Under the pieces are notes generated by a model. The model was not told where the DNA came from and did no database searches. It saw only the letters and a list, made by a program, of their open reading frames with translations. Of a stretch of DNA of 43,140 nt, positions 10,721-32,681 are shown one piece after another (within the stretch, counting starts at the first letter, position 1; the number at the start of each line of letters is the position of its first letter). Origin of the DNA: Bacillus sp. ISL-55 (lineage in GTDB: Bacteria > Bacillota > Bacilli > Bacillales > Cytobacillaceae). Location of the stretch: assembly GCF_018613155.1 (NCBI RefSeq), contig NZ_JAGGQU010000043.1:1-43140 (forward strand). The letters run 5' to 3'. The position numbers and the translations under genes are program-made.

Positions 10721-11834
10721 AGTTGCTAATGACCTTCATCTTTTTCTTATCGCTGCTCAAAATGGCTACTTGGTACTTTTCATTCTGGATGGATTTTAGT
10801 GCTTCCTCTGATTGAAGAAAGTCCTCTACCGTCTTTTCGATATCTTTTACTACTTTGTCAACATCTGGATCTGTTGACTCCAGAAGCAATTGGACAGAGA
10901 TATAAAAATGATCTTTTTTATTATTCGTAAAGCCTACGGAATCGATTTGGAATTCAGGATTTGCTTTCAACCCTAGGGCAATTGAATCAAAAATTTCCAT
11001 GAACTTTCCGCCTCGTTCTTCCAAACCAGGATCATACGTGTAAACCTTCACCTCAATATCACCAAGCTCCCTTTGTTTGAGCTTTTCTTTAATCTCTAGT
11101 TTTATGTTCTTGATGTTAGTGTCGGTGATCGGAAGCTCAAGATTCACCCGCTTCAAGCTTATCCCGCTTGTATGTCTTGGAGAATCATAATTATACTTGC
11201 CCAGTACTTCATATACCGTTTTCTCTATTTTTTCTATTTTTTTATCTATTTCTATCGATTCTTCATCCATCTTGCTCCATTGTTCAGCAGCTTCTGGATT
11301 GTTTGCGACCCTGATTTCATACTCTTCCTCATTCCTTGCTTCCAGGATACCACTGATCATATCTTTTATTGGTGTTTTCGTTTCTTTGAAATATTCCTCG
11401 GTATTAAAAACCATCGCTTCAATATACTTTTCTTTTCTATTAACATGCAAAGCAATATTTTTAAAATCATGCTCCAAGATCGCTTGATTTATTTCATTTT
11501 CAAGGGTTTGCACCTGAATTTTATCTTCAAAAATAAGGTTCAGGTAAGGAATACGTGATGCCACTTGTGCTACGGCTGGTGAAACAAAGGCGGTGCTGAT
11601 GAAAAGTCCAACTGCTGCGGCAGCGGATATTGAGAGAATCGTCACTCTCTTTCGGATGACACCTCTTTGTTGATTCCTTGTGTTTCTTTGAAACTTGTTC
11701 CAGTCGTCATCTACTTGCTTTTCTGCTTCCATGGTGATCGGTTTCTTTGGTATCTCGTCGATCAATCGATAGATACTTTTGGGTACCTCCAGCTGGTCAA
11801 GCGATTCCACCCTGTCCTCGTTGTTAGACCCCAT
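10719..11834 (-). CDS. DUF4030 protein, probable membrane anti-sigma factor
   Basis: The 371-aa product has a cytoplasmic N-terminal region of about 65 residues and one transmembrane span (LSISAAAAVGLFISTAFV). An AVAQVASRIP motif follows, then a long extracytoplasmic domain with charged repeats (EIDKKIEKIEKTV). The architecture is that of an ECF-controlling anti-sigma. Its start overlaps the end of the sigma gene by 11 bases, implying translational coupling. A clear paralogue lies at 38549-39586 beside another sigma gene, sharing SAFVSPAIAQV-type sequence after the span. The signal sensed is unknown, and the anti-sigma role is inferred from context and topology. Confidence 0.85.
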   Translation of the reverse strand: MGSNNEDRVESLDQLEVPKSIYRLIDEIPKKPITMEAEKQVDDDWNKFQRNTRNQQRGVIRKRVTILSISAAAAVGLFISTAFVSPAVAQVASRIPYLNLIFEDKIQVQTLENEINQAILEHDFKNIALHVNRKEKYIEAMVFNTEEYFKETKTPIKDMISGILEARNEEEYEIRVANNPEAAEQWSKMDEESIEIDKKIEKIEKTVYEVLGKYNYDSPRHTSGISLKRVNLELPITDTNIKNIKLEIKEKLKQRELGDIEVKVYTYDPGLEERGGKFMEIFDSIALGLKANPEFQIDSVGFTNNKKDHFYISVQLLLESTDPDVDKVVKDIEKTVEDFLQSEEALKSIQNEKYQVAILSSDKKKMKVISN

Positions 11835-12402
11835 TTACTTTCACCTCCTGTAAAAATTGCTTAGATTCCTGCAGAATTTTCGCTAAGCTCTGTTTCCCTC
11901 GCTTCATCCTTGCTTTTACCGTATTAATATTTTCATTGAGGATTTGCGAGATTTCTTTTACAGACATGTCCTCATAATAATGAAGGAAGAGCGGCAAACT
12001 CTGTTCTCTTTTTAACTTCATCAGGTGGCGTACCATTTCACTCTTACTTTCTTTATGTATAGCGATTTGCTGAGCTGACTCGGAAGTAATTTTCAGTTGA
12101 GCTTCTCTATTTTCATCAAAATCGATGTAAGCCTGGCGATTATTTTTACGGTATATGTCTATCGACCGTGAATACACAAGCGTATAAAACCATGCCTTGA
12201 AATTCGTGATGTCTTTCTGTTTCATAATGCTGACATATGCACCCTCCAGGGCAATCTGCAATGCATCCTCTGCATGCTCCTTTGACCTAAGAATCAAATA
12301 AGCCGATTTAAAAGCTGAAGACATCAATGGCGTTACAAGTATGCTGAATGCCTCATGGTCTCCTCCCCTTATCCTGCCAATCAATTCCTGCTCTTTATTC
12401 AA
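11824..12402 (-). CDS. ECF-type RNA polymerase sigma factor
   Basis: The 192-aa product has sigma-70 region 2 (GDHEAFSILVTPLM, with HAEDALQIALEGAY and FKAWFYTLVYSRSID for -10 recognition). Its region 4 is a helix-turn-helix (FLHYYEDMSVKEISQILNENINTVKARMKRGKQ). The start is TTG 12400-12402, about nine bases after AGGGGG. It heads a two-gene operon with the overlapping DUF4030 anti-sigma. An ECF-like promoter at 12434-12465 suggests that it transcribes its own operon. Related pairs occur at 39546-40100 and, with different partners, 24797-25333. Confidence 0.92.
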   Translation of the reverse strand: MNKEQELIGRIRGGDHEAFSILVTPLMSSAFKSAYLILRSKEHAEDALQIALEGAYVSIMKQKDITNFKAWFYTLVYSRSIDIYRKNNRQAYIDFDENREAQLKITSESAQQIAIHKESKSEMVRHLMKLKREQSLPLFLHYYEDMSVKEISQILNENINTVKARMKRGKQSLAKILQESKQFLQEVKVNGV

Positions 12403-12433
12403 TGAGGAAACCCCCTTTCCATTTGCTACATAA

Positions 12434-12465
12434 GTATAACGAAATGAAGTAAATATTTGGTTGCA
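12434..12465 (-). promoter_or_regulatory. Putative autoregulated ECF promoter
   Basis: On the minus strand, TGCAACC, 17 bp, then CGTTATAC. The AAC element and CGT element are those of bacilli ECF promoters. The other two ECF operons here carry a similar arrangement. No experimental support is visible. Confidence 0.5.
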
Positions 12466-12624
12466 TTTTTTTGAAAAAAACTAGAAAAAAGACTTCAACA
12501 TGGAGTTATTCCCTGAATAGAAAGAGAATTCTCGAAGGATACAGAAAAAAACTTTCTTCAACGCATATTTGAATACCGGAAAAATATATTTAATCTGACT
12601 TTGAGGTTGCTTAGGGGGCATTTT

Positions 12625-13152
12625 ATGAAGAGATTAATCGTGATCATGTTGGTAATTATCATTGTCAGCATTGGATCCTTCTGGACTTTTGACTATGTCA
12701 GTACTGATGGGGACTTCACTAAATGGAGCCATACAACCATGGGCTACGAACATTACGAGGACGGGAAGAAATACTATTTGGGTTATGTTTTTAACTGGGA
12801 AGGTATCGGTAAACCAACCCTAGAAAAAGTGGAATTCATTAAGAAAGACGGAACTATTGTCGCCAAGGACGATGATGAGTTCAAAATTGAACCTTATGTA
12901 GCGGACAATGGAAATATTGGCGGTCTAGATGAAGAATCCCTAGTAGAAGAAGGAATACACGAGGATCTTATTGATGTTAAAAATTATCAAGTAGACAAAG
13001 GTTTTTATTTAATATTAGCTGTGCAATACAATGGCACGACTCCAGAAAATGATATTAATTTATTAAGGATTACCTATAAAAAGTTCGGCGTAACCCAGCA
13101 CCGGGAAATTTCATTCGATGATGGAGTGATTACTGATCCGATGGAAAACTAA
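12625..13152 (+). CDS. Exported or membrane-anchored hypothetical protein
   Basis: The 175-aa product has an N-terminal signal anchor (MKRLIVIMLVIIIVSIGSF), then a beta-rich extracytoplasmic domain. The domain contains GYEHYEDGKKYYLGY and a C-terminal LLRITYKKFGVTQHREISF. The start is ATG 12625 after TTAGGGGG; the upstream in-frame TTG at 12601 has no site. It is divergent from the sigma gene, so both share the 12403-12624 upstream region. Control by that sigma factor is possible but no matching promoter is obvious. Family not recognised. Confidence 0.75.
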   Translation: MKRLIVIMLVIIIVSIGSFWTFDYVSTDGDFTKWSHTTMGYEHYEDGKKYYLGYVFNWEGIGKPTLEKVEFIKKDGTIVAKDDDEFKIEPYVADNGNIGGLDEESLVEEGIHEDLIDVKNYQVDKGFYLILAVQYNGTTPENDINLLRITYKKFGVTQHREISFDDGVITDPMEN

Positions 13153-13228
13153 AGAAAGAATCCTGCATCAGTTTGCTAAAGAGCTTTTTTGCTGATGATA
13201 GGCAACACCATGTATGGGTTCACATTTT

Positions 13229-13417
13229 TGCTGATGGCTGTTCTCGTAAAGATTGTTGTTAAAATCCTAAAGCCGATTTTAACGTAGTGCAAGGCCATTT
13301 TGCAGTCGGAATAAAGTTTGCAGCTCTTTTCTCACAAAAGAGTCAACTTTACCAAGAAAAATGGTCATAAGATCCTATTTTGTAGTCAAATAGCAACAAA
13401 GTTTGAGAAAAGAGCCT
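13229..13417. repeat. 189-bp tandem element, copy 1
   Basis: Begins near GCTGATGGCTGTTCTCGT and ends in GTTTGAGAAAAGAGCC. The next copy follows directly. Ends are imperfect inverted repeats (GGCTGTTCTC and GAGAAAAGAGCC), giving a MITE-like appearance, and it contains internal hairpins such as CTCTTTTCTCACAAAAGAG. It has no coding capacity. Confidence 0.85.
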
Positions 13418-13613
13418 TGCTGAAGGCTGTTCTCGTAAAGATTGTTGTTAAAATCCTAAAGCCGATTTTAACGTAGTGCAAGGCCATTTTGCAGTCGGAA
13501 TAAAGTTTGCATGCTCTTTTCTCACAAAAGAGTCAACTTTACCAAGAAAAATGGTCATAAAATCCTATTTTGTAGTCAAATAGCAACAAAGTTTGAGAAT
13601 AGATCCTTGCTGA
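13418..13613. repeat. 189-bp tandem element, copy 2
   Basis: Nearly identical to copy 1, offset 189 bp. I see one inserted T (GCATGCTC versus GCAGCTC), an A/G change in the AATCC stretch and two changes at the 3' end. The high identity implies recent duplication or gene conversion. Confidence 0.85.
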
Positions 13614-13636
13614 AAATAACGACATGCCATCAAAAT

Positions 13637-13672
13637 GAAAGGCAAGGGAATTTCTCCCTTGCCTTTCTAGAT
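13637..13672 (-). terminator. Terminator of the bacteriocin enzyme operon
   Basis: AAAGGCAAGGGA-GAAAT-TCCCTTGCCTTT stem-loop on the minus strand, followed by CATTTTG, just after the SagB stop. Confidence 0.75.
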
Positions 13673-13682
13673 TTCTGCTTTC

Positions 13683-15239
13683 CTAGCTATGCAAACTCCC
13701 TTTTAACCATTGACGCGGACGATAGGAGCCGATTGGTATCTGGATTAAGGTGGTTGCAACTTTCATTCTATAAAGCTCATCAGCCTTGCTTGTATCGAAC
13801 CCTAACAGTGGATGGCCCCCTAAACCAAGAGCAGACGCAGTTAAAAGTAAATTTTGAACGAGCATTCCCGCTTCCATCTGTAATATCCGGTACCCTCTGT
13901 ATCCTAATTCTTCTCGAAAAAAATCTATATTGCCTGCGACATGCAAGCAGAGTGGTACTTGCATGAGGTTGACGTTGTCAATGGACAACCCTGTCTGTAA
14001 TCGCACACGGTGATCTCCTTGTTGAATTTCTTGTAAAGAATGTTGTAGCTGGTTGTAAAAATAAGCTCCATTTGGAATGCCTTCTACATTATAGAAACAG
14101 CCGTATATCGAAACTCTGGGCCCCTGGCTGCAGTAAAATTCGTCCAGATCATTGCGGTATGAAAAAGTAGACATAGACTCCTTCAGTAGGGAAGCCAGCT
14201 GCTGCTGATTAACCCTGGACAAAACAAAGTCCATTTCAGGTGAGGAACGCTGCTTGCTTATCTCTGCCAAATCAAACACTAATGATTCCGTTTGCGGGAG
14301 ACTGATCTGCAGACTTTCCTCAATGTCTCTAGACGGGTTACAGACCCTGGTAATCGACTCGGTGGATTCAAGTTTCGAAGCTTCATTCAAGGTTATTAAT
14401 TTTGGAAACTGTAATACTTTCTCCGACCTTTCATAACGCTTAAATACAACCGGTTTCAGCTTTCTTTTTAATTCTTCTGACGATATGTTTTTGTGGGAAG
14501 CTGTTCCATTCGCAGTCCAGTTTGTAGTTTCCACTGACAGCGGAATAATCGAATACACACTCTCCTCCTGCTCAGATAACCCGAGAAGATGGTTGATTGC
14601 TGAATCGAGATATTGAAAGTAAACACCTGAAGCGAAACCAAAACGTTTCGCCGTTTCCAGCAGCTGCCCCATCATTACTCCAGCATCCAACCCCTGCAGC
14701 CGGTACGAAAAATTATTATATTTAAAGAAGTTTTTCCAAAACATCGTAGAAATGAATGCAGTCCCAAAGCAAGAAGATATATCGCAACGGTCGCCAATAG
14801 CGGCAGCAATATATGAATCGAAGTTACCAGCCCTCAGCAGAACAAGACAGTGATGGGCCGGGTCATAATGATATACCCCTTCAGGCAGATCCTCTATCTT
14901 TAAATATACATAAAGTTCATTAGGGTATAGACCCCCGCCGGAAGGAGCATACCTTCTAAAGGTATGGGCGGGATCAGCATCATCAGAGAAAAATGACTCA
15001 CTTACTTGGGTAATTCCGTAAACATACCAGAGGAAATGTCCGATCTCCTTGATATTCGGCTTGGATGGCTGCTTGTTTTCTGCCAAGGACAAGGGCACCT
15101 CCCCGGAAAGTGGCACCACTGGCAATCCTTGATAAAGTTTATAAGAAAGAGGAGCGTCCTCCCAGTTTGGTTCCCAGTTTTGCTGATTGGCACGATCGAT
15201 ATTAAACTGAAGATCCGTTAAAAATTGATTAAGATTCAT
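13683..15239 (-). CDS. SagB/ThcOx-family azoline dehydrogenase
   Basis: The 518-aa product is a SagB-type FMN-dependent dehydrogenase, which oxidises thiazolines or oxazolines on a modified peptide to thiazoles or oxazoles. It contains two nitroreductase-fold halves. The first has RRYAPSGGGLYPNELYVY near residues 100-117 and the second a related GPRVSIYGCFYNVEGIPNGAYFY and LGLGGHPLLGF. Length fits the duplicated SagB type of Bacillus. A good ribosome site (AGGAGGCAG region) precedes the ATG, 11 bases after the YcaO stop. It is the last gene of the four-gene bacteriocin locus and ends at a terminator. FMN binding is a family property. Confidence 0.92.
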   Translation of the reverse strand: MNLNQFLTDLQFNIDRANQQNWEPNWEDAPLSYKLYQGLPVVPLSGEVPLSLAENKQPSKPNIKEIGHFLWYVYGITQVSESFFSDDADPAHTFRRYAPSGGGLYPNELYVYLKIEDLPEGVYHYDPAHHCLVLLRAGNFDSYIAAAIGDRCDISSCFGTAFISTMFWKNFFKYNNFSYRLQGLDAGVMMGQLLETAKRFGFASGVYFQYLDSAINHLLGLSEQEESVYSIIPLSVETTNWTANGTASHKNISSEELKRKLKPVVFKRYERSEKVLQFPKLITLNEASKLESTESITRVCNPSRDIEESLQISLPQTESLVFDLAEISKQRSSPEMDFVLSRVNQQQLASLLKESMSTFSYRNDLDEFYCSQGPRVSIYGCFYNVEGIPNGAYFYNQLQHSLQEIQQGDHRVRLQTGLSIDNVNLMQVPLCLHVAGNIDFFREELGYRGYRILQMEAGMLVQNLLLTASALGLGGHPLLGFDTSKADELYRMKVATTLIQIPIGSYRPRQWLKGSLHS

Positions 15240-15250
15240 CCTGCTGCCTC

Positions 15251-17197
15251 CTAAGGGAACGGATGCGGAAAGTGATTTAATTCTTCAAATGACAAAGGTT
15301 CTTTCACATATCCAAGCTTCATTGGGACGTGGAGAACCCGGTCGAGCCCTTTGAGACGGGTCAAATGGTGTCCAAAGGTCATTGGCAGCATCCCCGGTAT
15401 CAATACTTTCACACAATAGAGCCCATTTTTCCTTATTTCAGGAGGAGTCTGGTCGACAACGATGACATTGAGCCCCAATCGCCGAAATTCCTTGAGGATA
15501 TCATTGAGATCTTCCGTCAGGTCTGCATGACGCGACTCATTATTAAAAGCGTCCTGAAAACTCTGTAATGGCCGGTCATCTTCGAGCAGGAAACCTAAGC
15601 GTGCTTCCGCCTGCGGCAATCCGTACAGCATTCCGTGATCATCCATCTCTCGCACTAGTGAATCATCATCAAGCATTTGCATGTATTTTTCCTTGTTGGA
15701 TTCCAGTTTTTCATCGAGATTGAGCATCATGCCGGCGAGCTCCTGAATCGCGCTTTTGGCAGCCTTTACTGGATCAAGATGGGCGCCTGCCGCACAAATA
15801 ATGTTCAATCCATTATCCTTCCTGTTTTTCGCCATCGCCCAGACACTTGGAATACCATGCTCCATGGTGGCATTAAATAAATATAAATCATATCCAGCTA
15901 CAGCCCTCATCCGCTCCGCCATCAAAAGCAGTTCTTCATCTTCAGCCGATTGAAGATCAAGGCGTGGCAGTTTCAGCTTTGAGTACCAGGACAAGAGGAA
16001 GGAATCACGCTCTACCACTTCCATGATGCCGTAGAAAATCGCCTCTTCCCTGCTTCCTCCAAGCGCGCAGCCATTTGACGTTTCATAGACAAATCCTGCT
16101 GACCCGCATCCCAGACTATAATAGGATAGAAGTTCTGGCACGAGAATCGGCCGCTCTTCAATCAGTGAGTAACCCCATACCCAATCCATCTGCCGGTCTG
16201 GGTCAAATTTTCGAAAAGGAAATCCTGGCTTTTCATATTCTTCATCAGCATGGACACCTACTTCCAATGGATTCAAGGCGTGCTGTTCCAGGTTACGGTA
16301 ACTGTCATGAACGGCTGTCCGCTTACCGCGAGGCTGAAGTCCGCAGTGACGCTCAAGCCCCTCCAGAATGGCAGTCAATTCGCTTTCTGCGTAGCATTGT
16401 GTCCTGCCGGCTGTCCCCTCATTTCCCCCTGAAATCATTGGCAGATTGACGCTAGCATCAGCGAAGGGAGTGACCAAATCGTACATTTTACTGTTTAACA
16501 GCCCTGTCCGGTTGTCAAAATAATCGGCAACGAGCACTTCCTTCATCTTATCAAGCGGTGTACATCGGTAGCTGCTGGCACTAATCTTCGGACTTGAATT
16601 TAATGAGATTTTAGCAAGAGAAGCTGAATCGTCTGGAATTGAACTGCAAACCTGGCACGAGGAATCTGCCAGAAACGTATGCCACGATCCATTCAATGTT
16701 TTTAAGTCGGTAAAATGCATCCGTCCTGCGGAAAGGCCCTCCTCGCCCGCAAGTACTCGATCTGCTTCAGTTACAATTATATGAACCATATGCAGAAGGC
16801 CACTTTTAGATGCCCAAGGGTCTGAACTCGTTTCTTTTTCAGACAGCTTTTTCTTCACCTCATTCATTTCGCTCCGTTCCTGCCCCCCCAGCAGTTTCCT
16901 CAGGTCAGCACATTGGGAACATCCTGGTTTGCCTGGCCTGACGAGCGGTCCAATGATTCCTTCTCCAAACGAAATAAAGGCACGGAGCCAGGGACTGCCA
17001 CTCAGTTTTACCGTTTCTTCAGCTTTTTGATGCGCAGTGGGGTTCCAGGAATCATGAAGGACAAGCATCAACTCAGAATTTTCGGGAAGCCCATTCTCAA
17101 AATCTGTCCTTCGGAACACTTGATAGCGTGAGGATAATTCTTCAGCAACCGAGTCTGCGAGCCAGCCTTCCCCGATAATGACTACGAAGGAACTCAA
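15251..17197 (-). CDS. YcaO cyclodehydratase fused to leader-binding domain
   Basis: The 648-aa product has two parts. Residues 1 to about 200 are the ThiF/E1-like domain of TOMM cyclodehydratases, with zinc-ligand pairs C93-x2-C96 (PGCSQC) and C181-x2-C184 (CQVC). The rest is a YcaO domain with ATP-site motifs ESELTAILEGLERHC, SNGCALGGSREEAIFYG and EVVERDSF, and AAKSAIQELAG. It ends in HFPHPFP, the proline-rich tail usual in azoline-forming YcaO enzymes. It ATP-dependently cyclises Cys, Ser or Thr of the precursor. The gene overlaps the upstream maturation gene by 4 bases, so they are coupled. No anomalies seen. Confidence 0.95.
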   Translation of the reverse strand: MSSFVVIIGEGWLADSVAEELSSRYQVFRRTDFENGLPENSELMLVLHDSWNPTAHQKAEETVKLSGSPWLRAFISFGEGIIGPLVRPGKPGCSQCADLRKLLGGQERSEMNEVKKKLSEKETSSDPWASKSGLLHMVHIIVTEADRVLAGEEGLSAGRMHFTDLKTLNGSWHTFLADSSCQVCSSIPDDSASLAKISLNSSPKISASSYRCTPLDKMKEVLVADYFDNRTGLLNSKMYDLVTPFADASVNLPMISGGNEGTAGRTQCYAESELTAILEGLERHCGLQPRGKRTAVHDSYRNLEQHALNPLEVGVHADEEYEKPGFPFRKFDPDRQMDWVWGYSLIEERPILVPELLSYYSLGCGSAGFVYETSNGCALGGSREEAIFYGIMEVVERDSFLLSWYSKLKLPRLDLQSAEDEELLLMAERMRAVAGYDLYLFNATMEHGIPSVWAMAKNRKDNGLNIICAAGAHLDPVKAAKSAIQELAGMMLNLDEKLESNKEKYMQMLDDDSLVREMDDHGMLYGLPQAEARLGFLLEDDRPLQSFQDAFNNESRHADLTEDLNDILKEFRRLGLNVIVVDQTPPEIRKNGLYCVKVLIPGMLPMTFGHHLTRLKGLDRVLHVPMKLGYVKEPLSFEELNHFPHPFP

Positions 17198-19098
17198 CTC
17201 AATCCCTCCTCTCGCAGAGATACACCAAATACGCCTTCTAGTTGCTGACTGAACATCGGTTCAAAGCTTAATTCATACACTGACATTTCGGTTCTGTTCT
17301 GTTTAAGAACTTCAATCGCTGCCTGCAAAGTTTCACGCTGGATCCTTCCTGTGCATTCCGGAATCGGTAAGCTATGTTTCTCACTTTCCGGAAAATAAAC
17401 CTGTGACTCCTGCAGAATTCTAACTCCAGAAGATTCATTTTGAAAATGTGATAATGCATTCTGCAAAGCGCTTCTTAACGCCAAAGTTTTATTCAGCCCT
17501 GCGCTTCCATACCAGCCTTTTTTCGTACCGATCCAGATAACAGGGAAACCGTGGACTTCCTTCCCAACCCCAACTCGCGGTGCTCCCTGTATTGTCGTAA
17601 GAGCCTTTAAATAGAAAGCACATCGCTCGTCTTCAATCAACTGGAGGTCAATAAGAGAAATACACTCTTTCTCGTTGAACTTTCGAGTATCCAATTCCTT
17701 TGTGAGACATTTTTGCAGTCCTCTCCCAACTGCTTCCGCAAAAGATTCACCGGCACCTACACCAAGATTTTGTCCGTTTCCAATCACTTCTGCCATGCGG
17801 TTTGCATATGTTTCAATCCCCGTCAACGCCGCCTCCGTTCTTGCTTCTTCATGTGTGAACCCTGAACAAACCGTTGCGGCCAGTAATTCAGACGGCCCAT
17901 CTGATAGCGGATCTGCTGCCTGGACCCTGCATTGTGCCAAGGGAAGCTGCTTAAGGTCACCCTCCTCCCATTCATGTAATATCCCAGTCTCTTTGGAAGT
18001 CAATAGACTAAAATACTGCAAAAGTTTTTCAGGTTCAACTTTTCTGTAGTTCTGAGCAAGTCGACTTTCAATATCCTCTATCTTTTCGGATGAAAAAACT
18101 TCTGTTACTAGTGGATGTGGTGAAACTAAATGCCAGCTTCCCTCAAGAGTTTCTAAATTCAACAGATAGATCTGGTTTCTTTGTTCAGCAGTCGTGACGC
18201 CCGCAAGTTTTTTATATAATTCAAAGGTAATAACATTTGCCAGTAATGCCCCAGTGGTTGAGGACATAACCGGGTCCTTCTGCTCTTTTACCAAAACAGA
18301 AGAATGCAATCTTCTCCATGCCGACTCCCAGCAAAGCTCTGAATCAGGAGCAAACATTGGACCAGCCATGCCTGTTTGTTTGAACAGTATGGCGGGAATG
18401 AAGGTTTTCCTCTCCTCCCTGCAAATTGATTGTAAAAGCCCCAATTCTTCAACATTGCCATTTTGTGAAACATACAGGACTGAGTCGAAAGGCCTCAGCA
18501 GCCCGCTCCAGTCTCCATCGGTACTTTTAAGCTCCTCGTACTCCACCTCCGAATCAGTTCTACGTGCATGGTTCACGAGCTCAGCCAACCTTTTTCTATT
18601 GGTCGGGATATCATCTGTAATAGAGACATTCAGTTTCTGCAGACCGGATTCCAGCAAAGTTGAAATGAGCGAGTTCAATATGGGACCGGAGCCTACCGCC
18701 AGTACCTTTGCATTGCGGAATGACTGGAATCTTGATGCACCTGAACCAGCCAAATTATCGGCAAACTCAATTTGTGAAGCGAATTTCTTCAGGACTTGCT
18801 CAGATAATTGATGCTTTTCATCCTCGCTCACATCCCTGACAAAACCATTTTCAAGAAGAACTTCAGTAATTTGATAAACTCGCTGCCTGTAAGCTTCAGG
18901 CAGGCCATCGGTTAATTTCCCCAGCGAATACTCCCCGTTAAACATTGGCAGCAGCTTTTCAACCCACTGGTCAATTCCATTGCCTTCAAGACGAAAGGAA
19001 CATGAGTTATTCCTTAAATACACACCACTGTTTGGTTCTGCGAGATAAAATGTATCTCTTTTCACCTTCAATACCATAGAAGGGTCCAGCTTCACCAT
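17194..19098 (-). CDS. Thiazole-containing bacteriocin maturation protein (TIGR03693 type)
   Basis: The 634-aa product matches the putative thiazole-containing bacteriocin maturation protein family found with heterocycloanthracin loci. The N-terminal region has a ThiF-like glycine loop (VLAVGSGPILNSLISTLLESG). The C-terminal half has GIETYANRMAEVIGNGQNLG and ALRSALQNALSHF, resembling a degenerate YcaO-like half. The start is ATG 19098, just after GAGGAG; the longer frame to 19119 would include that site. It is translationally coupled to the YcaO gene downstream. A terminator hairpin (19200-19232) separates it from the precursor gene. Its exact step is not established; it probably works as a partner of the cyclodehydratase. 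Confidence 0.92.
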   Translation of the reverse strand: MVKLDPSMVLKVKRDTFYLAEPNSGVYLRNNSCSFRLEGNGIDQWVEKLLPMFNGEYSLGKLTDGLPEAYRQRVYQITEVLLENGFVRDVSEDEKHQLSEQVLKKFASQIEFADNLAGSGASRFQSFRNAKVLAVGSGPILNSLISTLLESGLQKLNVSITDDIPTNRKRLAELVNHARRTDSEVEYEELKSTDGDWSGLLRPFDSVLYVSQNGNVEELGLLQSICREERKTFIPAILFKQTGMAGPMFAPDSELCWESAWRRLHSSVLVKEQKDPVMSSTTGALLANVITFELYKKLAGVTTAEQRNQIYLLNLETLEGSWHLVSPHPLVTEVFSSEKIEDIESRLAQNYRKVEPEKLLQYFSLLTSKETGILHEWEEGDLKQLPLAQCRVQAADPLSDGPSELLAATVCSGFTHEEARTEAALTGIETYANRMAEVIGNGQNLGVGAGESFAEAVGRGLQKCLTKELDTRKFNEKECISLIDLQLIEDERCAFYLKALTTIQGAPRVGVGKEVHGFPVIWIGTKKGWYGSAGLNKTLALRSALQNALSHFQNESSGVRILQESQVYFPESEKHSLPIPECTGRIQRETLQAAIEVLKQNRTEMSVYELSFEPMFSQQLEGVFGVSLREEGLS

Positions 19099-19199
19099 CT
19101 CACTCCTCCTCAGGCACAAATGCCTTTACTCTCCTTCATTTGACTGTCATTATCATCGTATGTAGTTCAATTTGTCCCTTATGTCATATGAGGAAATAA

Positions 19200-19232
19200 G
19201 AAGCCCCTGCAAAAAACTTTCCACAGGGGCTA
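19200..19232 (-). terminator. Hairpin between precursor and enzyme genes
   Basis: AGCCCCTG pairs with CAGGGGCT around a 14-base loop, then TTCTTATTT on the minus strand. It may attenuate, giving more precursor than enzyme transcript. Confidence 0.65.
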
Positions 19233-19250
19233 AAGTCTGTATTCTCTAAC

Positions 19251-19529
19251 TTAACCGCGATGGCAGCGGCCGCAACCACCACAGCGTCCGCACCCGGCGC
19301 AACGAGCGCATCCTCCACATCCGCCGCAGCCTCCGCAACGGAAACAACCACCGCCGCCAAAGCAGCTAAAGAAACAAGAAAAACCGAAACAACCGCCAAA
19401 ACCACCCAAGCCTAGAAAAATCCGCTCATCCCCTGAATGGTACTGGTTTTGATCCCAGCTAACCGGCTGAGTTGCCTGGAAATCACCAACATTCAGCATT
19501 TGCAGTTCATTTTGAAAATTATTCATCAT
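19251..19529 (-). CDS. Heterocycloanthracin/sonorensin-family bacteriocin precursor
   Basis: The 92-aa precursor has a leader of about 46 residues (MMNNFQNELQMLNVGDFQ and an acidic QNQYHSGDER segment) and a core rich in Cys and Gly. There are 13 cysteines at 47, 52, 56, 62, 65, 68, 71, 74, 77, 80, 83, 86 and 89. The last ten are spaced exactly every third residue (Cys-Xaa-Xaa array), with Gly, Arg and Ala between. These are the expected substrates for thiazole formation by the adjacent YcaO/SagB enzymes. The start is ATG 19529 (GGAGGG eight bases upstream); the frame reaching 19649 has no such site. No Ser or Thr lies in the array, so thiazoles rather than oxazoles are expected there. Confidence 0.95.
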   Translation of the reverse strand: MMNNFQNELQMLNVGDFQATQPVSWDQNQYHSGDERIFLGLGGFGGCFGFSCFFSCFGGGGCFRCGGCGGCGGCARCAGCGRCGGCGRCHRG

Positions 19530-19944
19530 TATTCTTTCCCTCCTCGGATAAATACAGGGCTCCAAAAAACAAGTCACAACCTTGAGCACTACCAGAAATA
19601 TTCTTATATACATGGTACAAACATAATTAATAAGAATACTCTTCATCAATTTATGAAGACGAAACGGCCATTGTCACATATGCAAAAGCCTATTTTAGGA
19701 AATTGAAGGGTACCGCTTAAGCTAAACACTTTTTCCCCTATCTATATCAAGGCAAGGGAGGTATAGAAAACTTCAGTTTTTTTTCGGACATTGCTTAGAA
19801 TCAGAGTCGGACACTTCAGAAACATCCTCCTCATCACATCCTCAATTAAATGCCAAAGCGTGATGGTTTATAAAATATTCTGCAACTTCCATCGCAAAGT
19901 TGTACAATGAACATGTAAACTCAATTGTTTGGGAGGGAATAGCA
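19530..19944. other. Divergent control region of bacteriocin precursor and TIGR00266 genes
   Basis: About 415 bases separate the two start codons. Several AT-rich hexamers could be promoters on either strand, but I cannot single one out. No repeat or operator is evident. The minus strand is open in the precursor frame back to 19649 but lacks start signals. Confidence 0.3.
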
Positions 19945-32195: not shown

Positions 32196-32219
32196 AAAAG
32201 AGGCAAAAGCCTCTTTTGG
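32196..32219 (-). terminator. Terminator of the glutaredoxin gene
   Basis: Perfect AAAAGAGGC-AAAA-GCCTCTTTT hairpin 8 bases after the minus-strand stop. Confidence 0.8.
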
Positions 32220-32226
32220 GAAATGA

Positions 32227-32460
32227 TTATTTTTTTATATATTCCATAAGTGTATCCGGGTCAAAACCAAGAACCCAGTTGCCATTAACCTTCGTTTGTG
32301 GCACACCCATCTGTCCAGTTTCTTCAACCAGCTTTTGCGCAGCAGCTTGATCGTATTGTACATTCACTTCTTTGTAGTTTAATCCTTGACCCTCAAGGAA
32401 TTGTTTCATCATTGTGCAGTAAGGTCAAGTGTTCGTAGTGTAAACCGTGATATCGTTCAT
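32227..32460 (-). CDS. Glutaredoxin with in-frame TGA at the first active-site cysteine
   Basis: Reading from ATG 32460 (GAGGAGG upstream) gives MNDITVYTTNT, TGA, PYCTMMKQFLEGQG and then a normal thioredoxin-fold glutaredoxin with GQMGVPQTKVNG and a FDPDTLMEY end, 77 codons. Family members have CPYC here, so the TGA replaces the nucleophilic cysteine (codon 12, 32425-32427). Two readings fit: selenocysteine (U-P-Y-C, known in some bacterial glutaredoxins), or a Cys-to-stop change or base-call error. A hairpin, CCTTGA-GGG-TCAAGG (32384-32398), lies 26 bases after the TGA with guanines in its loop, as in bacterial SECIS elements. A start at 32412 would lose the active site. Translational readthrough is unproven. 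Confidence 0.7.
32384..32398 (-). promoter_or_regulatory. Candidate SECIS-like hairpin
   Basis: Minus-strand CCTTGA-GGG-TCAAGG has a six-pair stem and a G-only loop beginning 32 bases after the in-frame TGA of the glutaredoxin gene. The spacing and loop guanines suit bacterial SECIS. The bases also encode the conserved LEGQG, so the hairpin could be fortuitous. Confidence 0.35.
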
Positions 32461-32681
32461 TTTAAATCCTCCTCGAAATTTTTAATACCCTATAATGTAT
32501 TATCCCGAATTTGCTATATTTTTGCAAAAAAGAAGCACCGGGGATACTTATGTTTTTCCCTATTTTACTTTAAAAAAACAGGAAGGGAGGTATTTTAATA
32601 GTAGGTGGGTAACTAAAAGCAAATTTCTCATTATCAAGATATAATAGAAGAAAACTAACGATTGGAGCGGAGGAAAGATCA

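Follow-up and report, generated by a model that had tools for sequence, protein, structure and literature searches.

The DNA analysed here, a stretch of 43,140 nucleotides called the window below, corresponds to contig C38 in a genome of 4.52 Mb (69 contigs, 99.99% complete), which belongs to Mesobacillus as judged by its named relatives. On the minus strand, positions 32227..32460 hold a gene that very likely is a genuine selenoprotein gene, as its sequence and that of its relatives indicate, with a glutaredoxin of 77 residues and a UPYC motif as its predicted product, for which the residue count suggests about 9 kDa. One frame of 78 codons leads from the ATG at 32460 to the TAA at 32227, and its sole internal stop is the TGA at 32425..32427 (minus strand). 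This putative selenocysteine codon specifies the catalytic residue 12 and falls exactly on the first Cys of CPYC; with TGA read as U, the protein begins MNDITVYTTNTUPYCTMMKQF. The read-through protein matches the Pfam family Glutaredoxin (PF00462) with an E-value of 2.3e-18 and 66.6 bits, compared with a gathering cut-off of 22.9, and displays the traits of that family, namely the C/UPYC motif, the VP before strand 3 and the thioredoxin fold. C12, P13, Y14, C15, V53 and P54 are invariant in 26 aligned sequences. The open frame and the Pfam match bear out the original prediction of a well-preserved glutaredoxin in which TGA replaces the first CPYC cysteine, and the signals that it had assigned to the gene are likewise present: a ribosome binding site, GAGGAGG, read from the sequence at 32468..32474, and a terminator-like hairpin with a T tail at 32196..32217, both on the minus strand. 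AGGAGG precedes the start codon in 20 of 21 rows with TGA, and the remaining one (L042) has AGGAG. Since the same genome encodes a full-length Cys paralogue that is 72% identical to the window protein, the Sec form is an addition to the Cys enzyme, not its replacement.

Downstream of the glutaredoxin gene and on the same strand follows a signal peptidase gene; upstream, pointing away, lie a 51-residue frame that also occurs in relatives and then a UPF0060/YnfA gene. In 17 of the 21 loci L024-L044 (not in L040-L043) these neighbours lie no further than 1.5 kb from the TGA gene, and no named TGA locus outside this set has them in that range. The leader (32490-32640) is conserved in much of the genus and includes an inverted repeat, TATCCC...GGGATA, together with two minus-strand promoter candidates: a SigA-like match to consensus, TTGCAA-N17-GATAAT (32499..32527), and a match to the SigB consensus, GTTTTT-N13-GGGAAA (32555..32579). 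SigB-like sites occur upstream of 20 of 39 Sec genes and 13 of 47 Cys genes and in 24 of 3,900 shuffles, with L116 left out for its short flank. As the pattern was chosen after viewing the upstream alignment and the Cys genes share the site, the SigB-like promoter is a lead only. Elsewhere in the window, positions 11824-19649 contain a cluster for a thiazole/oxazole-modified peptide of the heterocycloanthracin/sonorensin type, comprising the peptide precursor (19251-19649), a ThiF-like protein (17194-19119), a SagD-type YcaO protein (15251-17197), a SagB-type dehydrogenase (13683-15239) and an ECF sigma factor (11824-12402).

Selenocysteine machinery of the genome

In line with the original prediction, the genome-wide search for sel genes returned SelA (563 bits, cut-off 268), SelB (364.5 bits, cut-off 242), SelD (394.9 bits, cut-off 125), which carries one TGA of its own, and a tRNA-Sec with the anticodon UCA (58.3 bits), so that selA, selB, selC and selD are all represented. 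Two formate dehydrogenase alpha chains also carry TGA, each within a long open frame. The expectation that selenocysteine is uncommon in Bacillaceae does not hold in this neighbourhood: selA scored over its cut-off in 48 of 61 sampled genomes, 21 of them from the genus of the source genome. It did so in 21 of 21 genomes with the TGA form of the glutaredoxin versus 27 of 40 others (Fisher 0.0024, kinship ignored), and in a second set of 49 genomes in 21 of 21 with TGA versus 9 of 28 with Cys only (Fisher 4.9e-7, kinship ignored). The second set, which shares genomes with the first, covers 49 of 68 loci on named GTDB contigs; the omitted 19 either belong to genus members that the first set already includes or are second loci from the same genomes.

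Two genomes with TGA that were scored as selA-positive give a damaged reading of this gene, by sequence error or decay. In G004 (87% complete) two TGA codons lie inside selA; in the single-contig genome G015 selA is split into two frames (G015:C1:1845480-1846866). G015 retains the Sec glutaredoxin and lacks a second TGA gene described below, a state that possibly reflects an early loss of the Sec trait, or else a sequence error. At L014:1501-2254, the tRNA-Sec is followed after about 60 nt by a match to Rfam STnc490 and then by a 160-residue frame that by eye looks like an IS200-type transposase; the 'sRNA' match may therefore be the end of an insertion element.

The second TGA gene, also glutaredoxin-like, is located at C55:33803-34081 (plus strand) of the source genome and at L074:3804-4082, with TGA at the first active-site position (RPMUTDC). 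This TGA recurs in 19 of 21 genus genomes and in G053 and G036, and G060 holds a relative without the stop. Its hairpin, GCGAAGGA-GUU-UCUUUCGC, has an energy of -9.8 kcal/mol, and the hairpin letters are identical in the G036 copy at 40% protein identity. In none of the 16 NCBIfam models listed does the gene reach the cut-off, and it perhaps represents an unnamed selenoprotein family.

The presence of this machinery bears on the possibility that the window TGA is suppressed as another amino acid, or that the product arises only from the internal ATG at 32412, which does open a 61-residue frame, albeit one without the active site. We consider either very improbable. Suppression is at odds with the sel genes and with the joint occurrence of the TGA form and selA, and an enzyme with a non-native catalytic residue should be inactive. 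The strong purifying selection on codons 2-11 (pN 0.005, pS 0.548) and the ribosome site before the first ATG in 21 of 21 rows speak against an internal start; the part upstream of the TGA is thus very likely translated.

Occurrence of the TGA form in relatives

The TGA form was detected in 21 of 61 related genomes, that is, the source genome, 19 of 20 other members of its genus and G039, which belongs to another family. Within the genus, 20 of 21 genomes carry TGA, and in the exception, G010 (66% complete), no orthologue was found. The comparison of orthologues agrees with what was originally predicted, as none in the genus has TGC or TGT. Across the 68 named loci, codon 12 is TGA in 31, TGT in 24 and TGC in 13, so that an in-frame TGA stands where the homologues of 37 loci encode Cys; TAA or TAG occurs at this codon in none of the 68. 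Records with the TGA form bear the names Mesobacillus, Neobacillus, Bacillus dakarensis, B. suaedaesalsae, Salirhabdus and others, and the form is present in M. selenatarsenatis SF-1 and M. subterraneus DSM 13966. In a scan of 193 genomes from 25 genera of the family, which overlap with the 68 loci, the DNA pattern of the stretch from TGA to hairpin, with up to 3 mismatches allowed, matched 41 genomes from 8 genera. Of these, 39, spread over 7 genera, have TGA, and the other 2, from a single genus, have TGT. A reversed control pattern matched none of the 193. With G039 included, the TGA form is present in at least 8 genera.

This distribution bears on the alternative named alongside the original prediction, a nonsense mutation or base-call error that turned an ordinary CPYC glutaredoxin gene into a pseudogene. 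Such a loss would be tolerable next to the Cys paralogue, but the same TGA in 31 of 68 loci and 39 of 193 family genomes cannot be explained by a single mutation or a base-call error. The absence of TAA and TAG at codon 12 also speaks against a pseudogene, as does a pN/pS of 0.098 in codons 32-76; purifying selection acts on both sides of the TGA. We accord this reading a negligible probability.

Several individual records deserve mention. L118 and L044 (the copy of M. boroniphilus JCM 21738) retain TGA and hairpin and have a frame shift near residue 62. The relative at L052 (G028:C43:290987-291214), 57% identical, has a TAA within its matching part. The glutaredoxins of L090, L131 and L121, from records named Chryseobacterium sp. 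ISL-80 and Pseudomonas sp. ISL-84, group with Mesobacillus and Cytobacillus, and these records are likely misnamed genomes.

The SECIS-type hairpin and its codons

Downstream of the TGA, at 32383..32399 (minus strand), the transcript can form a SECIS-type hairpin, UCCUUGA-GGG-UCAAGGA, with -7.6 kcal/mol for a 27-nt piece. The hairpin and its GGG loop had been predicted, with six pairs and 26 bases downstream; there are in fact seven pairs. Its loop lies 32 nt after the TGA. A 2026 review (PMC13188914) sets rules for bacterial SECIS elements: 3-9 nt in the loop, 4-16 bp in the stem, a G within the first two loop positions, a distance of 16-37 nt from UGA and a minimum free energy of at most -7.5 kcal/mol. 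The window hairpin conforms to them throughout (loop 3, stem 7, G first, 32 nt), narrowly so in its energy (-7.6 for the 27-nt piece versus -7.5 kcal/mol). Under the same rule, stems were also found at the other TGA genes of the genome, with 8 pairs for the second glutaredoxin-like gene, 7 for selD and 7 and 5 for the formate dehydrogenases. An Rfam scan of the window gave no match at gathering scores. In the open stretches of four pieces of the source genome, 1.3% of 19,348 codon positions precede a hairpin with 7 or more Watson-Crick pairs at a permitted distance, and 6.4% do if G-U pairs are allowed; at this chance rate the hairpin of a single genome is ruled out as proof.

The hairpin is kept in 40 of 40 distinct TGA genes (derived from 52 rows, some of which are the same genome twice), and TTGA and TCAAGG of the arms are unchanged in all 40. 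The TTCCTT ahead of the arm letters is kept in 38 of 38. The 3' arm varies once, to a G-U outer pair, and arms this nearly invariant leave no covariation to show. Two loop bases vary, so that the loop reads GGG, GGC or GUC and residue 24 is G, A or S. In L024-L044, 21 of 21 Sec genes reach at least 7 pairs; among 19 Cys paralogues none has 7 pairs and 4 have 6. The joint conservation of TGA and hairpin in the orthologues is what is expected of a selenoprotein gene. The minimum-energy fold of a 61-nt stretch is a different, long-range pairing of the UGA region with the 3' arm of the hairpin (-11.4 kcal/mol). We rejected this fold: it needs the loop GGG and is broken by GGC and GUC, which leave the local hairpin in place, so that the local hairpin is the conserved structure.

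The same region, codons 13-31 (32368..32424, minus strand), is almost devoid of synonymous change. Over 19 Sec genes of the genus, pS is 0.044 here compared with the value given above for codons 2-11 and with 0.476 in codons 32-76, and it is 0.681 in codons 13-31 of 19 Cys paralogues. None of 100,000 position shuffles of the Sec genes attained the observed value, compared with 28% for the Cys genes. For pS and pN, L042 (other family) and L044 (near-end frameshift) were left out of the Sec set and L073 (partial start) out of the Cys set; identical rows were merged for these values as well as for the diversity, tree and promoter counts. Across 38 genes (L133, L044 and L118 left out), synonymous diversity is zero at codons 20-26, even at Leu22, for which six codons exist. 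The Glu23 codon, whose third base supplies the first loop G, is GAG in 40 of 40 genes, unlike codon 47, where GAA is favoured (36 of 40). Judged from the alignments, the conservation of the hairpin is not a matter of chance. That the invariant stretch instead serves an antisense terminator, another RNA signal or codon bias, with the TGA linked to it by accident, has next to no likelihood: the hairpin does score as terminator-like on the plus strand, but the Cys paralogues show neither the constraint nor the seven pairs, TGA and hairpin persist where the window neighbours are gone, and the hairpin is decaying in one relative with TGT.

Predicted chemistry, origin and meaning

We consider it very likely that the gene encodes a selenoprotein glutaredoxin in which SelB with Sec-tRNA(UCA) would decode the UGA at codon 12 as selenocysteine, guided by the hairpin that lies 32 nt downstream. 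The product of 77 residues is predicted to adopt a thioredoxin fold in which helix 1 starts with UPYC; there, the Sec12 selenolate would attack the oxidized substrate and Cys15 would resolve the selenenylsulfide. We infer selenium insertion, catalytic cycle and partner. A structure model built from the 26 aligned sequences (pLDDT 94.5) finds its best fold matches in glutaredoxins and glutaredoxin-like redoxins (cGrx2, BC3987, cGrx1), with NrdH further down. BC3987 of Bacillus cereus (PDB 3zij/3zit), a thioredoxin-like protein, shares the fold at 30-32% identity but has Cys instead of Sec, in a CPPC motif.

In the PDB, the best sequence match (1.3e-13) is cGrx1 of Clostridium (Alkaliphilus) oremlandii (7c10/7c12), which shares the U(C)PxC motif, the fold (39-40% identity in the structural match) and a GFD in the loop after strand 4. 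According to PMC7642778, cGrx1 naturally contains Sec, which was exchanged for Cys to obtain crystals, and the protein is proposed to reduce MsrA. As residue 12 of the window protein aligns with the Sec of cGrx1, its chemistry is likely the same, selenolate attack followed by resolution through the second Cys. The two differ in host, Clostridium as opposed to Bacillaceae; the proposed partner of cGrx1 is a selenoprotein MsrA. In the window protein the binding loop ends in GFDP, as in NrdH-like redoxins, and Bacillaceae use bacillithiol rather than glutathione. These two points favour a thioredoxin-reductase-like reductant or bacillithiol, either of which is more likely than glutathione; reduction by the latter appears unlikely. 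From the SigB-like sites one may guess at a stress-induced role alongside the Cys paralogue.

With regard to curated families, the best NCBIfam model for both the Sec protein (85.5 bits) and the Cys paralogue (83.5) is YruB (TIGR02196), whose cut-off of 88.55 both narrowly miss; the window protein differs from this family by Sec in place of the first Cys. The UXX-star selenoproteins (NF041212, NF041114, NF041211, NF047338) are, by their model names and PMC13188914, likewise small and glutaredoxin-like with Sec in the active site. The window protein is far below their cut-offs (best 47.6 versus 66, NF041212) and, in contrast to them, retains the second Cys in its UxxC. Sec glutaredoxins as such are already known: they appear among the selenoproteins in PMC13188914 and PMC9312934. 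Of a 2006 survey (PMC1794560), the passages on glutaredoxin concern Geobacter, Alkaliphilus and Moorella, and the tables list 3 families with 3 selenoproteins for Bacillales. Among the titles and abstract starts that searches of open-licence PMC papers listed, none reports a Sec glutaredoxin from Mesobacillus, Neobacillus or any other Bacillales. The same literature yielded no paper on selenocysteine in Neobacillus, and the one paper that it yielded on selenoproteins with Mesobacillus deals with Citrobacter isolates. By this search, what is new is the occurrence in Bacillaceae.

Two genomes of another genus (g5), G112 and G115, have TGT in an otherwise Sec-like gene. In G112, which corresponds to L104 (record Niallia endozanthoxylica MER_TA_151), the hairpin is retained at -7.5 kcal/mol; in G115 the first loop G and two of seven pairs are gone (-4.7 kcal/mol). 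Since selB is over its cut-off in both genomes and selA in that of L104, it is the gene that changed and not the machinery. The TGT looks like a later loss, and we infer the order Sec first, then Cys. In a tree on 76 columns, 38 Sec rows form one group with one Cys row (L104) inside, requiring 2 changes; the fork of this group has a support of 89/76, below the starred level, from a bootstrap that had not settled. Without the hairpin-constrained residues 12-31, the tree is unresolved, with 4 changes, 1 of them forced. A single gain of Sec is accordingly likely, and no more than that. Tentatively, and with slightly less than even confidence, we suggest that a duplicated Cys glutaredoxin acquired Sec and SECIS once within Bacillaceae and near kin, was inherited by or spread over at least 8 genera, and is now being lost through TGA to TGT in one further genus, the SECIS being intact to begin with and decaying later, in genomes that contain a second Sec glutaredoxin-like family as well. 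If true, this would provide an orderable series of gain and loss of a selenoprotein.

The window gene would thus stand for a conserved selenoprotein in many soil bacilli, which ordinary gene calling probably misses or labels a pseudogene. It offers a very clean bacterial SECIS, with fixed arms and a loop in three versions, and the Cys relatives with an intact or decaying hairpin make SECIS function and the loss of Sec directly testable, in experiments that are feasible in a culturable Bacillaceae host with the Cys paralogue as control.
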